NCBI GenBank assembly: GCA_947446925.1
Contig: CANFHU010000002.1
Coordinates: forward strand, 1-64,000
Length of the DNA stretch: 64,000 nucleotides
Direction: 5' to 3'
Origin: Flavobacteriia bacterium
Lineage (GTDB): Bacteria; Bacteroidota; Bacteroidia; Flavobacteriales_D; Crocinitomicaceae
The position numbers and the translations under genes are program-made. The first letter of the stretch is position 1. Each line of letters begins with the position of its first letter. Below are positions 56,473 through 62,131 of this stretch, in pieces. Below the pieces are notes generated by a model. The model was not told the origin of the DNA. It made no database searches and worked only from the letters and a program-made list of their open reading frames with translations.

Positions 56473-56928
56473 TCACATCTCACTATACGTTGGCAATCCT
56501 TCTAGTTCTACTAATTTGTGCTGGGATCTATCTAGAAAATAAAATTTATGGTGTATCCCATTGCTCAACCATAAATAATCTGCCTGTATTTTAGAATTAT
56601 ATTGCGCAATTTGATGTAATACTTTCTCGTTAATTGCAATTTCAGGTGCCTTACATTCCACTAATACTTTTATTTTTTTGTCGTTGCCATACACCAAGAT
56701 ATCACAACGTCGATCTAATGTGTTCACCTTAATCCCTGCTTCGGAAGAGATAAGTCCTACTGGTGTCGCTAATTGATGAATGAGGTAATGGATGATGTGT
56801 TGACGTACCCATTCCTCAGGGGTCAGTACTAAATTCTTTTTACGAACCACACAAAATACCGAAATCACTTCGTTTTTACGCGAAAGTCGTAAAGGAGCAC
56901 GAGGAAGGTTTAAGGCGGTGAGGTTCAT
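56473..56928 (-). CDS. HsdR N-terminal-like PD-(D/E)XK nuclease fold protein
   Basis: 151 aa. EWVRQHIIHYL, then RRCDILVYGND and KVLVECKAPEIAI match the type I restriction HsdR N-terminal family (HSDR_N_2); the Asp and the ExK (ECK) of the PD-(D/E)XK active site are visible. It is a stand-alone domain with no motor or methylase gene nearby. Stand-alone copies are common in Bacteroidetes chromosomes, so it is more likely housekeeping or orphan than part of a restriction system. It lies between conserved core genes and the accessory island. Confidence 0.88.
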   Translation of the reverse strand: MNLTALNLPRAPLRLSRKNEVISVFCVVRKKNLVLTPEEWVRQHIIHYLIHQLATPVGLISSEAGIKVNTLDRRCDILVYGNDKKIKVLVECKAPEIAINEKVLHQIAQYNSKIQADYLWLSNGIHHKFYFLDRSQHKLVELEGLPTYSEM

Positions 56929-57177
56929 GGTGCTAAAATTAGTGAATTTTTGGGTTTGCTAATTCTTTGATTTGTTGAAGCTGAAAAATATAATTGATAC
57001 TTCGGATACTCATTTTATAGATCATTGTTTTAGCAAAACCTTTTCAAATACGAGTATATCTGAATTGAAAGTTTGAAAAAGCTCCATCACTTTCCTCTTT
57101 TCATTTTCTTCTCAACTAACATACTAAATCTTATTTATTTACGTATTTTTAGTAAAATAGAATTTTTATTGAGAATA

Positions 57178-58590
57178 ATGCGCTTTAAATTATATTCATA
57201 TCGTCCATTTTTTGTAGTTATCAGTTGTTTGATATTAAATAAGATGTGTATCGGTCAAAGCGATACCGTTCATTTTGATAGTTTAAATTTCAAAACATCT
57301 TGTGATAAGGTATTATTCTTAAGTAACTCTAAAGTTTATCTTCATAATCCTTATTTTTTAAGCCGTTTGGTAAATTATCATCGAAGATGTGTTTTAACTG
57401 TTTCCGAATATTATTATCACAGTAAAGATATTTTTGATTATTCAATAGATTTAAAATGTGAATTTCCTGAAAGTGAAGTGTTAAAATATGATAAATACAA
57501 AAATTTAATTGATACTACTTTTGGAGAAATTACTTACTACAAGCAAAAAGATACCTATAAACAAATTAAAAATATTGAAAACTTATTCTTATCTGAAAAA
57601 TTTGGATACGGTTGTCAGTCAAATAGTACACTAAAAATAAATTCATTTAAAAAACTGAATATTAATGATTTTAAAATTAATGAATTAATTTTTAATGATG
57701 CTTCCAAAATTTACAGTAAAGTCTATGAAGAATTACTAAAAAATCAATCATTAAACGTAGAAAGAGTTTATATAAGAGACCCTTTCGATAGTCTTCCTAA
57801 TTACCTTTCATCGTTTAAAAACTTAAAAAGTTTGGAGTTGGAAATATTTCAAGGCGATGGGTTGGGTGTTTTAAGTTTATGGAATAATTATTCTACGATT
57901 TATTTAACTACAGTACTTTCAAATTTATCAGATGAATTAAGATTTTTTAAAGTTGATTTTGTAGGAGGGAATTTATTCATACCAGAAAGTAGTATTCAGC
58001 GATTTAAAAATTTAGAAGCTTTACATCTTAATCTTCAATCTAATAGTGCTTCTCCATTTGCAAGTATCCCTGTTTCGTTTCTTTTAAGTCAAAAATTTAA
58101 ATTTTTTAATGCTTCGATAGAATATTTTAAAAGTATAGATTATAAATATCCAACACCTATTTACGACAAAGATTATTGTAACCTCTGTTATGAACGAACT
58201 TGTCAGCGTTTAGACTATGCAAACAAGTTAGACACGATCATTTTTAGAGATTTAGAGCAAAAAATCTATGCAACAGGTAAAGTAAATGACGATAATCTCG
58301 CAGAAGGAAAATGGTTGTTTTACCATAAAAATGGAACCATTGCAGAAGAACGTCACTACAAACAAGGAGTAGAAGTTGGAGAATGGTTGATGTATGATGA
58401 GCAAGACAATCGAGTAGGTCATTACGAATTTAAAAAAGATACTACCATTTGCACTTATTATAAATCAACCGGAGGGTTGGGGTATCAATATATTTTATTT
58501 AACAATTATACCGATGGAATCTATAAGCGTTGGAATGATGTGGGAGTCTTGGTCACAGAAAAAAGGTATAAAAGCTCAAGGTATGAATAG
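57178..58590 (+). CDS. Secreted LRR/MORN (YwqK-like) protein, copy 1
   Basis: 470 aa from the ATG at 57178; the open frame upstream starts only with a TTG. A signal peptide (residues ~1-27, FFVVISCLILNKMCIGQ) leads. A middle part (~200-320) has leucine-rich-repeat-like strands (FKNLKSLELEIF, FKNLEALHLNLQ). A cysteine cluster YCNLCYERTCQR (~340) follows. The C-terminus has YwqK/MORN-type repeats (EGKWLFYHKNGTIAEERHYK, GEWLMYDEQDN, DGIYKRWNDVGVLVTEKRY). It has a diverged second copy at 59821-61228. YwqK domains are often labelled antitoxin, but here the protein is exported, so that label is not supported. The function is unknown. Confidence 0.85.
   Translation: MRFKLYSYRPFFVVISCLILNKMCIGQSDTVHFDSLNFKTSCDKVLFLSNSKVYLHNPYFLSRLVNYHRRCVLTVSEYYYHSKDIFDYSIDLKCEFPESEVLKYDKYKNLIDTTFGEITYYKQKDTYKQIKNIENLFLSEKFGYGCQSNSTLKINSFKKLNINDFKINELIFNDASKIYSKVYEELLKNQSLNVERVYIRDPFDSLPNYLSSFKNLKSLELEIFQGDGLGVLSLWNNYSTIYLTTVLSNLSDELRFFKVDFVGGNLFIPESSIQRFKNLEALHLNLQSNSASPFASIPVSFLLSQKFKFFNASIEYFKSIDYKYPTPIYDKDYCNLCYERTCQRLDYANKLDTIIFRDLEQKIYATGKVNDDNLAEGKWLFYHKNGTIAEERHYKQGVEVGEWLMYDEQDNRVGHYEFKKDTTICTYYKSTGGLGYQYILFNNYTDGIYKRWNDVGVLVTEKRYKSSRYE
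57745..57845 (+). repeat. Gene-conversion tract, copy 1
   Basis: 101 bp that match 60374-60474 with only two mismatches, while the sequence on either side is much more diverged. See the finding. Confidence 0.8.
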
Positions 58591-58596
58591 TAGATT

Positions 58597-58641
58597 ATGA
58601 AAATTAACAAGTTTGAACCTTCTCAATTAATTGGAGTATAA
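58597..58641 (+). pseudogene. Truncated start of a gene downstream of LRR/MORN copy 1
   Basis: An ATG 6 bp after the copy-1 stop (same spacer TAGATT as after copy 2) opens MKINKFEPSQLIGV and stops. Its first codons resemble the leader of the gene that follows copy 2 (MIINNFT). It looks like the stump of a gene lost when an IS element inserted. Confidence 0.5.
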
Positions 58642-58675
58642 GTTAAGCTATATGATAGGATTAAAACTTAGAAGT

Positions 58676-58804
58676 ATGGTAACAGAAAGAAAAAAGTATG
58701 ACAAGTCTTTTAAAACAAAGGCTGTAGAATTAAGTTTCGCTAGAAACAATGTGAATGAGGTAGCAGAAGAGTTGGGAATCAAATTTCAATCAATTTTTAA
58801 TTAA
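58676..58804 (+). pseudogene. IS3-family transposase OrfA remnant
   Basis: 42 codons encode MVTERKKYDKSFKTKAVELS followed by NEVAEELGIKFQSIFN and a stop. This is the N-terminal helix-turn-helix of IS3-type OrfA proteins (KYDxSFKxKAVELS...VAEELGI). The rest of the element and the terminal repeats are missing. Confidence 0.8.
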
Positions 58805-58810
58805 GTAATC

Positions 58811-59437
58811 ATGAATAGATTTTTTTCACTATTTTTTTTATTATCCCTTGTTCTATCATGTACAAATTATAGAATAAGACGTTTATGTAATTTAGATAAA
58901 AATATGATAATTAAGTCTGTTAAAACAAAAACATCTCATTCATTAATGATTAATTTTCAACTTAATGACAGTTCAATTGTTAATTTTCTTGATTATTATC
59001 AACTTAAATATTATTTTATTACAATAAATAAAATTAACAGTCAAATTAGATCGGTTAAAGAAATTGACAAAAACACTAATAAATGCACTTTTCAAAGAAG
59101 ATACATTTACAATACTCCTATTGACACTACTTTTATATTTAATAGTAATGGTAAAATTACTGAAGTTATATACGAAGATAAAGACTATACATTTTCAATT
59201 CAAAATGTAATAAATCTCTGTGATAGCATTCTACATAAAGATCTCTCTGCTACAGGTTGGTGTAGTTATCTAAGAAGAGAAAATGGTTTCTATATTCTAA
59301 GCTATTCCACTAACCAAGATGGGACGATAAAAAAAGATCGATGTTCTGAAGACGGTCCAATTAGTTATCAAATTAAAATAAGTGGTAAATCTGGTGATTT
59401 TGTAATAGAAAGAGCTTATTATATTTTTTCAGATTAA
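58811..59437 (+). CDS. Unrecognised lipoprotein
   Basis: 208 aa. The N-terminus has a lipoprotein signal with lipobox LVLSC (Cys at ~17). The mature part is rich in Asn, Ile, Lys and aromatic residues, with no domain that I recognise. A segment YIYNTPIDTTFIFNSNGKITEVIYED looks like one beta-hairpin of a MORN or lipoprotein repeat. It starts 7 bp after the transposase remnant and is preceded by no other promoter that I can see. It may be membrane-anchored in the outer membrane or periplasm. Confidence 0.7.
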   Translation: MNRFFSLFFLLSLVLSCTNYRIRRLCNLDKNMIIKSVKTKTSHSLMINFQLNDSSIVNFLDYYQLKYYFITINKINSQIRSVKEIDKNTNKCTFQRRYIYNTPIDTTFIFNSNGKITEVIYEDKDYTFSIQNVINLCDSILHKDLSATGWCSYLRRENGFYILSYSTNQDGTIKKDRCSEDGPISYQIKISGKSGDFVIERAYYIFSD

Positions 59438-59561
59438 GACATTTTTAAAAAAACTGTAAATATCACTCAATATTTTATTAAAAAATCATTATGCCTACAA
59501 CAGAAAAATACTATCCAGCACTTTCAGACCTCATTAGTATCAACGAAGTGCCTCCCCGCTG

Positions 59562-59582
59562 AGCTGGATTTTTAATCCTGCT
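59562..59582. repeat. REP-like palindrome, unit 1
   Basis: AGC-t-GGATT and AATCC-t-GCT around a 3-nt centre: an imperfect palindrome with one T-T opposition. It shares its GC-x-GGATT core with unit 2, 176 bp away. Confidence 0.5.
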
Positions 59583-59758
59583 CCAAAAAATAAGTAAATA
59601 CGCTTTACTGGATTTTATATCTTACAGCAGTAATGAAGATATTTCTTCTTTAAATCAATCAAAATATATTCATACATAAATACTAAACCAACGAAAATTG
59701 CGTTTACAATTAGCAAGTTAGGTGTAGATTGATTAATTTTAGTTTGATGGAAATTAAT

Positions 59759-59780
59759 CGCAGGATTTACAAATCCAGCG
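59759..59780. repeat. REP-like palindrome, unit 2
   Basis: CGC-a-GGATTT and AAATCC-a-GCG around AC: the same design as unit 1, with an A-A opposition at the matching place. Confidence 0.5.
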
Positions 59781-59820
59781 AAACTGGGATAAAAATCGTT
59801 TTGAACATACAAATTAATAC

Positions 59821-61228
59821 ATGGTTTTAAATAAGTTTACATATCATCTATTTTTAGTTTTATTCATATGTTTGATGAATACCATAGGTCATTCTCAAGA
59901 AAATATTGAAGATAAGGATACCACATTTATACTTACTCCATGTGAAAAATTGAAATCATCTTCGCTTTATTACATCAATCTTGTATATTACCCTTTTGTA
60001 TCAATTCCTAAAGAGAGTTGTAATCTGTATTTTAGAGGTAGTTTTGAAAACTGGCATGAATACTTTTCATTTTTTGAAGAATTCAGATTTAATTTTTCTG
60101 AAAGCGAAGCTCCTTATTACGATAAGTACAAAAATAAATTCGATACAGCGTTTTTTGAACAAGAAGAAATTACCAATAAAAAAGTTGGAAAAATTAAACA
60201 TCTAGCTATAGATGAAGATACTTATTCTGGTTATCTAAAAACAAAATCATTTGATGATATTAAAATAAACATATTTAAAAAAATCAATATTAATGATTTT
60301 AAAATAAAAGAAATCAGTCTTTCTGATGCATTCTATTTTTATTCCAAATTGTACGATGAAATACTAAAAAAAACAATCATTAAACGTAGAAAGAGTTTAT
60401 ATAAGAGACCCTTTCGATAGTCTTCCTAATTACCTTTCAGCGTTTAATAACTTAAAAAGTTTGGAGTTGGAAATCATGCAACAAGATGGAGTTGGAGTAA
60501 GCAGTTTAGTTTATAGTTATGCAACTATTTATCTTTCTAATTTATTAAATAATTTATCAGACCAATTAAGGTTTCTTAAAATCGAAAAAATTGGAGGTAA
60601 TTTATTTATTCCTGAAATTAGTATTCAACGATTCAAAAATTTAGAAGCTTTACATTTAACTCTTGATGCCAAAACTAACACTCCAGTTGCTAATATCCCT
60701 GTTTCGTTGTTGTTAAGCCAAAAATTTAAATTTTTTGACGCATCTATTGAATACTTTAAAATTAAAAAAGATTATTGGCGTGGTTATGATGAATTTAATT
60801 ATGACAAAGACTACTGCAACATTTGCTATGAACGAGCTTGCCAACGCGTAGATTATGAAAACAAGTTAGACACGATCGTTTTTAGAGATTTAGAGCAAAA
60901 AATCTATGCAACAGGCAAGGTAAATGACGATAACCTAGCAGAAGGTAAATGGATATTTTACCATAAAAATGGATCCATTGCAGAAGAACGGTACTACAAG
61001 CAAGGAGTTGAAGTTGGAGAATGGATGATGTATGACGAGGAAGGCAACCGAGTTGGGCATTACGAATTCAAAAAAGACACCACCATTTGTACCTATTATA
61101 AATCAAACGGAGGGTTAGGGTATCAATACATTTTATTTAACAATTATACCGATGGAATCTATAAACGTTGGAATGATGTTGGAGTGCTGGTGACCGAAAA
61201 AAGGTATAAAAGTTCAAGGTATGAATAA
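59821..61228 (+). pseudogene. Secreted LRR/MORN (YwqK-like) protein, copy 2, frameshifted
   Basis: Two frames together encode one protein like copy 1. The first (59821-60420) has the signal peptide FLVLFICLMNTIGHSQ and ends abruptly in KRRKSLYKRPFR. The second frame, from 60374, continues QSLNVERVYIRDPFDSLPNY through the LRR-like part, the cysteine cluster YCNICYERACQR and the MORN repeats to the stop at 61228. The break is at an eight-A run (60366-60373); dropping one A restores a full protein of about 468 aa. It may be a pseudogene, a phase-variable gene, a slippage-expressed gene or a sequencing error. The next gene starts 6 bp after its stop. Confidence 0.8.
60374..60474 (+). repeat. Gene-conversion tract, copy 2
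   Basis: The 101-bp partner of 57745-57845 (two mismatches). Its left edge coincides with the poly-A frameshift. Confidence 0.8.
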
Positions 61229-61234
61229 TAGATT

Positions 61235-62131
61235 ATGATAATAAACAACTTTACATATCTTACTTATTTAGTTTTCCTTTTTAGTTTAACCGCATTAGGA
61301 CAACCGATTAAGAATGATCATTCTTTAGATACTTTAAATTTTAAGCGTTGTTGTCATAATTGTAACGAAATAGATTACTGTGTTTTAGATTCTGTTTTTA
61401 AAAATCGAGATTTGCATTTTTCATATAGTCAGGAGCAAGATGAAGACAATTATATAAAAACTCGAAAATTCAGTTGGGTTTTACGAAAAGGATGGAAAAA
61501 GAAATTTTCACTTTATGATTATGTCAACACTCATTATTATCATCGAGTAATGAATCAAAAAATTCAAGAACTTCATACTAAAAAAGCATCTTTAGATACT
61601 TTAATCGTTTGGAATGGCATTTCTGACGAATATTGTTTTTTGGATTCAACCAAACATCATTGTTTAATTGATTATCAACTAAATTATCTTCATTCAAACA
61701 AAATGAGTTATAAATCTCAAATGAATGCGTACCACAAAAAAATGTTTGAGAAAAAATTTCAAGAAGTAAAAGTTCTCATCTTTAATAATCCTGTTGGATG
61801 TTGTAGTGATACAATCTATGATACCACAAACCTTTTTTTATACCATTTTCCTTTTAATAAATTTACCGCTTTAGAAACTATTGTCCTTACGGGGAATGAT
61901 GCTGATATTATTATCGATTTACCTTACACAAATTATCCATCTTCACTAAAATCAATAAAAGGATATAGTCTTCACAATAAAATACTTTTTGAAAAAAACG
62001 TAAATAAACATTTACCTAATCTAAAATTATTTTTTGGTTACCTGAACGATTTTAGTGAAAACGAAATGTATTATTATCCTGATGGAGAAAATCTAAATTA
62101 TTTTATTTACAAATTTAAATTGCATAAATGA
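61235..62131 (+). CDS. Unrecognised secreted protein with LRR-like segment
   Basis: 298 aa. A signal peptide (1-22, LTYLVFLFSLTALGQ) resembles that of copy 2 (59821). Cysteines cluster near residue 38 (FKRCCHNCNEIDYC) and at VGCCSD (~190). A C-terminal stretch FTALETIVLTGNDADIIIDLP and LPNLKLFFGYL looks like a few leucine-rich repeats. No family is recognised. It starts 6 bp after LRR/MORN copy 2 and its stop overlaps the next start (ATGA), so the three are one transcriptional unit. Confidence 0.75.
   Translation: MIINNFTYLTYLVFLFSLTALGQPIKNDHSLDTLNFKRCCHNCNEIDYCVLDSVFKNRDLHFSYSQEQDEDNYIKTRKFSWVLRKGWKKKFSLYDYVNTHYYHRVMNQKIQELHTKKASLDTLIVWNGISDEYCFLDSTKHHCLIDYQLNYLHSNKMSYKSQMNAYHKKMFEKKFQEVKVLIFNNPVGCCSDTIYDTTNLFLYHFPFNKFTALETIVLTGNDADIIIDLPYTNYPSSLKSIKGYSLHNKILFEKNVNKHLPNLKLFFGYLNDFSENEMYYYPDGENLNYFIYKFKLHK

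Follow-up and report, generated by a model that had tools for sequence, protein, structure and literature searches.

A near-identical block shared by two tandem paralogues of a flavobacterial island: probable gene conversion within a mosaic array

A 64,000-nucleotide stretch of DNA from a Flavobacteriia bacterium of the family Crocinitomicaceae (assembly GCA_947446925.1, contig CANFHU010000002.1, positions 1 to 64,000 of the forward strand; hereafter the window) carries two tandem paralogues for putative exported proteins, which share a block of 101 bases that is nearly identical while the DNA around it has diverged. We consider it probable that this block was made alike by recent recombination between the two copies, in its simplest form by gene conversion. 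The same had been proposed in an earlier note on this DNA and agrees with the finding that the homogenisation of silent sites is confined to the block. Copy 1 (57178-58590, plus strand) is an intact gene for 470 residues, the C-terminal part of which resembles MORN_2 repeats. Copy 2, on the same strand, is split into two open reading frames (ORFs): a 5' part of 199 residues (59821-60420), the final residues of which are out of frame, and a 3' part of 255 residues starting from TTG (60461-61228), which in the ORF list runs without further stop until its end. In what follows, G000 denotes the genome of the window and C2 its contig, G001 to G012 are other genomes of the genus, and the loci L026 and L027 lie in G012 and G010, respectively.

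A short tract homogenised between diverged copies

The segments 57745-57845 of copy 1 and 60374-60474 of copy 2, both on the plus strand, are equal at 99 of 101 bases, the mismatches falling at 57811/60440 and 57819/60448 and leaving exact runs of 66 bp (57745-57810, corresponding to 60374-60439) and 26 bp (57820-57845). Before the block the copies agree at 77 of 105 positions (57640-57744) and after it at 95 of 145 (57846-57990); the coordinates given earlier are exact. Identity is strongly uneven along the genes, since only 231 of 410 aligned bases are equal over 57178-57640, as against 224 of 252 over 58276-58527. When matches were shuffled over 57640-58216, a run of 66 bases was reached in none of 5000 trials, and in one of 5000 when the interval was extended to 57640-58592; when shuffling was restricted to positions at which copy 1, copy 2 and their homologue in G012 are not all alike (190 or 244 sites), none of 20000 trials with either set attained the 20-site run at 57748-57804.

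The codons of the block tell the same story at the level of silent change. They specify the same residue in 31 of 33 cases, with no silent difference among these 31, whereas outside the block 64 of 218 same-residue codons differ silently (Fisher p 9e-5 against the block), a contrast that sharpens when only the nearer flanks are considered (38 of 104; Fisher p 8e-6). Both mismatches within the block alter an amino acid and none is silent, while in the shared 3' ends of the genes (58219-58587) 26 of 114 same-residue codons carry a silent difference, which bears out the earlier remark that they have diverged at many synonymous sites. The two outcomes that the earlier note had named as contrary to its view were not found: identity varies along the alignment, and in the homologue of G012 the sequence of the block is different.

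The extent of the tract needs to be qualified. Its secure core is 57748-57804 rather than the full 101 bp, with a maximum of about 57735-57845, so that the previously proposed tract stands in its core and not in its whole length, copy 2 being nearer to the G012 homologue from about 57811 to 57963 in the coordinates of copy 1. The right edge lies between 57804 and 57845: copy 1 equals G012 at 57811 and 57819, and the two copies agree against G012 at 57834. By parsimony with G012, it is copy 2 that changed at both mismatches. The tract's left edge is close to 57745, where the alignment holds a run of A and one substitution.

Directly left of the block in copy 2 lies a run of eight A (60366-60373, plus strand), at which the reading frame breaks, as the earlier note had seen; the corresponding A runs of copy 1 and G012 are shorter. 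The same note had attributed the frameshift and the tract to a single event, a proposal that we find unnecessary because slippage in this run suffices; the coincidence of the frameshift with the tract edge is partly built in, because the difference in the length of the A run itself ends the match. Slippage in homopolymer runs of such length is an ordinary event, and homopolymer indels are a common assembly error. On the plus strand of the window, runs of at least 8 bases occur seven times for A and thirteen times for T, and the A8 run belongs to the class next to the longest A runs. The frameshift most plausibly reflects an independent slippage in the homopolymer, or an error of assembly, neither of which requires a recombination junction. 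A conserved poly-A switch was also considered and rejected, since the long run is kept neither in copy 1 nor in G012.

From these observations we infer the following course of events. The two copies would be tandem paralogues in a variable island, in which homologous recombination recently homogenised a short stretch (no less than 57748-57804 and no more than about 57735-57845), most simply through non-reciprocal gene conversion, which may have started where the copies were already similar. Afterwards copy 2 would have gained two amino acid changes within the block, and an independent event, slippage by one base in the adjoining A run, would have broken its frame. Copy 2 is slightly favoured as the recipient, because it alone is broken and the two later changes both occurred in it.

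Mosaic structure and exchange across species

Among 99 related genomes searched, only one close homologue was found besides the two copies themselves, an intact gene for 467 residues in G012 (L026:756-2159); weaker homologues occur in G012 and G010. Altogether 51 of the 99 relatives were matched and, outside G000, G010 and G012, the matches listed fall within query residues 299-470, the MORN-like end, with the exception of a weak match in G084 at residues 243-430. The LRR-like part was found in two of 240 genomes of the family, G000 and G012. A search of a genome contig collection, in which records near the genome of the window may be missing, retained one locus from 161 candidate stretches.

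Comparison with the G012 gene reveals that the near-identical block is one of several tracts and that the array is a mosaic. Immediately to the right of the block, copy 2 is close to the G012 homologue (60475-60619, plus strand; 138 of 145 bases, compared with 95 of 145 to copy 1), with which it agrees over 57846-57963 in copy 1 coordinates, including a 26-site run at 57870-57942 that was reached in 0 of 20000 shuffles. Copy 1 in turn agrees with G012 over 58173-58220 in a 13-site run (0 of 20000 shuffles). Further on, a tract of 968 bp encompassing the end of copy 1, an insertion sequence (IS) remnant and a gene for 208 residues (58525-59492, plus strand, corresponding to L026:2094-3062) is 99.6% alike between the two genomes, with three substitutions and one single-base indel and no difference over 58525-58936, whereas ftsH and valS are only 78% and 79% identical between them. 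The valS gene lies on the same contig of G012 as the homologous array, and this contig is not just DNA of the window's species, because its valS is only 79% identical. The 968-bp tract sits at different chromosomal sites in the two genomes.

Two further segments link the array to G010. The leader of copy 1 (57029-57242, plus strand), consisting of upstream DNA and the signal-peptide start, is 94% identical to L027:3458-3671 of G010, where it precedes an unrelated body of 568 residues, so that the protein match covers the first 36 residues only. The gene for 298 residues that follows copy 2 (61235-62131, plus strand) is 97% identical to its G010 counterpart in amino acids, eight consecutive 60-base windows from 61680 being identical in DNA. 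Background identity with G010 varies: the ftsH region is about 80% identical, the two borders of the island about 92%. Hence the array exchanges DNA across species as well, through the 968-bp and 145-bp tracts with G012 and through the leader and the 298-residue gene with G010. The exchange between the two paralogues that the earlier note had described is therefore present but not the only one, and the interspecies part is new beyond that note. The two tandem paralogues in G010 have no near-identical block (best 60-base window, 0.68), and conversion is therefore not shown as general. As to a carrier, no match was found in a plasmid collection and no relative was confirmed in viral contigs (five candidate stretches).

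In terms of known processes, the block resembles ectopic gene conversion of tandem paralogues, which leaves short, sharp-edged tracts of near identity between diverged neighbours with silent sites homogenised; in these features no essential difference is seen here. The 968-bp tract resembles the mosaic genes formed by homologous recombination between species, given its 99.6% identity against the 78-79% of ftsH and valS, but differs in that the G012 array lies on the contig with valS rather than at the site occupied in the window, the two sites being non-allelic. The locus is a clear example of known recombination, within a genome and between species, in a small array of uncharacterised exported proteins; alone it adds an example, not a principle.

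Alternative explanations

Several points weigh against recombination between the two copies as the source of the block. The shuffles assume independent sites, and the mosaic tests use three sequences. G012 does not polarise the block: it provides the one outgroup gene close enough to align, and donor and recipient are not separable. Copy 1 equals G012 at both differences within the block, a pattern fitting also a tract that ends at 57810. With a single strain and an assembly only, conversion leaves the same picture as a double crossover or import from a third source, and an assembly error could account for the frameshift of copy 2.

Among the alternatives, a crossover is possible, although we hold it to be rather unlikely: a unit of G012 type (the end of one gene, the IS remnant, the 208-residue gene, the repeat and the start of the next gene) would have been inserted by recombination inside one native gene, producing two hybrid copies with the block as the crossover region. 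This scheme would account for the G010-type leader on copy 1, while copy 2, at its start and in the DNA preceding it, resembles the G012 gene (59682-59875, 77.5%), as well as for the G012-type end of copy 1 and DNA 3' of it. It also fits an ATG with MKINKF after copy 1 that is cut by the IS remnant, MKINKF being the start of the 298-residue gene of G010. Yet simple hybrids predict G012-like DNA on one side only of each copy, whereas to the right of the block it is copy 2 that is G012-like and copy 1 is not, copy 1 becoming so at its far 3' end; extra exchanges are needed.

It is improbable that a third, unseen donor gave the block to both copies. The neighbouring segments do show interspecies exchange, but two events would be required, and the genome of the window has no third copy beyond the two described. 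We attach as little weight to an artefact of assembly or binning, be it a chimeric join, a mixture of strains or a false indel in the A run. The genome comprises 50 contigs and has an estimated contamination of 1.64, the G012 record is labelled a metagenome-assembled genome, and homopolymer indels are frequent errors; against this, two differing bases inside the block and differences everywhere around it show that it is not a single pile of reads assigned to two places, and the contig with the G012 array bears a valS only 79% identical to that of G000.

It is very doubtful that the A8 run acts as a phase-variation switch, or that slippage of RNA polymerase reads through it, so that copy 2 would not be dead. 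The lesion is single and no stop interrupts the remainder before its end, but among the three sequences the long A run is peculiar to copy 2, the block of which already has two amino acid changes. Protein constraint is hardly credible as the cause of the block, even if the region aligns with a paralogue of 32% identity, because the G012 homologue differs there from both copies, silent sites included (equal at 80 of 101 bases to copy 1 and 78 of 101 to copy 2), and shows silent differences in 7 of 24 and 7 of 22 of the same codons in which the copies show none.

Proteins and genomic setting

Both copies had been described as secreted LRR/MORN paralogues, a designation that is retained here only in part. 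Export is probable for both, judging by eye from the N terminus, which in copy 1 looks like a signal peptide. The Pfam LRR model had no match in copy 1 at E values up to 1, and gave sub-threshold matches in two distant G010 paralogues. MORN_2 scored 22.0 bits in copy 1 and 23.2 bits in the 3' part of copy 2, both under the cut-off of 29.6, but 30.0 bits, above the cut-off, in one G010 paralogue. A low-confidence structure model of copy 1 (mean predicted local distance difference test score 49.7) has alternating strands and helices, and the order of its elements, strand-helix units followed by strands only, would fit an LRR-like and a MORN-like part. Foldseek with this model gave no match at E of 0.001 or less; its weak top matches include the single-layer sheets of OspA, SET7/9 and Morn1, which are not usable as family evidence because the model is too weak. 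Neither NCBIfam nor PADLOC yielded a match for copy 1, and among the titles that literature searches listed, none was noticed to concern this locus.

The array lies between a conserved HSDR_N_2 gene (56473-56928, minus strand), which forms the left border of the island, and holA for the delta subunit of DNA polymerase III, which starts at position 71248 of C2, beyond the window (the names ftsH, valS and holA rest on domain matches). Of 13 genomes of the genus, two (G002 and G006) have no HSDR_N_2 match, and in all the other 11 holA adjoins this gene. The spacing between the two is 70-95 bp in seven of the 11 (G004, G005, G007, G008, G009, G011 and G012), 0.45 kb in G003, where the HSDR_N_2 match is incomplete, 2.1 kb in G001, holding one ORF of 479 residues, 14.3 kb in G000 and 18.1 kb in G010. 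The array of G012 therefore sits elsewhere, because its gap is only 70-95 bp. Such a fixed site, nearly closed in most relatives and filled with 14-18 kb of other genes in two, resembles a hypervariable island, but differs in that the ORF lists of the two islands showed neither an integrase nor a tRNA or conjugation gene, although no systematic search for these was made.

It is conceivable, though unlikely, that the site is an exchange locus, where recombination within the genome and between species would couple a constant leader (promoter region and signal peptide) to changing exported bodies. The proteins would then diversify in the manner of surface antigens or kin-recognition proteins, with repeats and IS remnants between the genes giving crossover sites. 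The site is unoccupied in related species, and if this leader were seen with other bodies in more strains, it would offer a handle on protein diversification in this group.

Between the two copies lie three further elements, all on the plus strand. The IS remnant (58612-58789) is the start of an HTH_Tnp_1 transposase gene, 94-95% identical to copies in G004, G008 and G012, of which the one in G004 continues into HTH_Tnp_1 and rve domains. The gene for 208 residues (58811-59437) had no confident family in profile searches; the N terminus of its product resembles a lipoprotein signal. An intergenic repeat (59553-59814) follows, pieces of which recur in C2 of the window's own genome and around the arrays of G012 and G010. 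It has imperfect inverted ends, lies near arrays of genes for exported proteins and is also found at 154177-159437 and 67586-67652 of C2.

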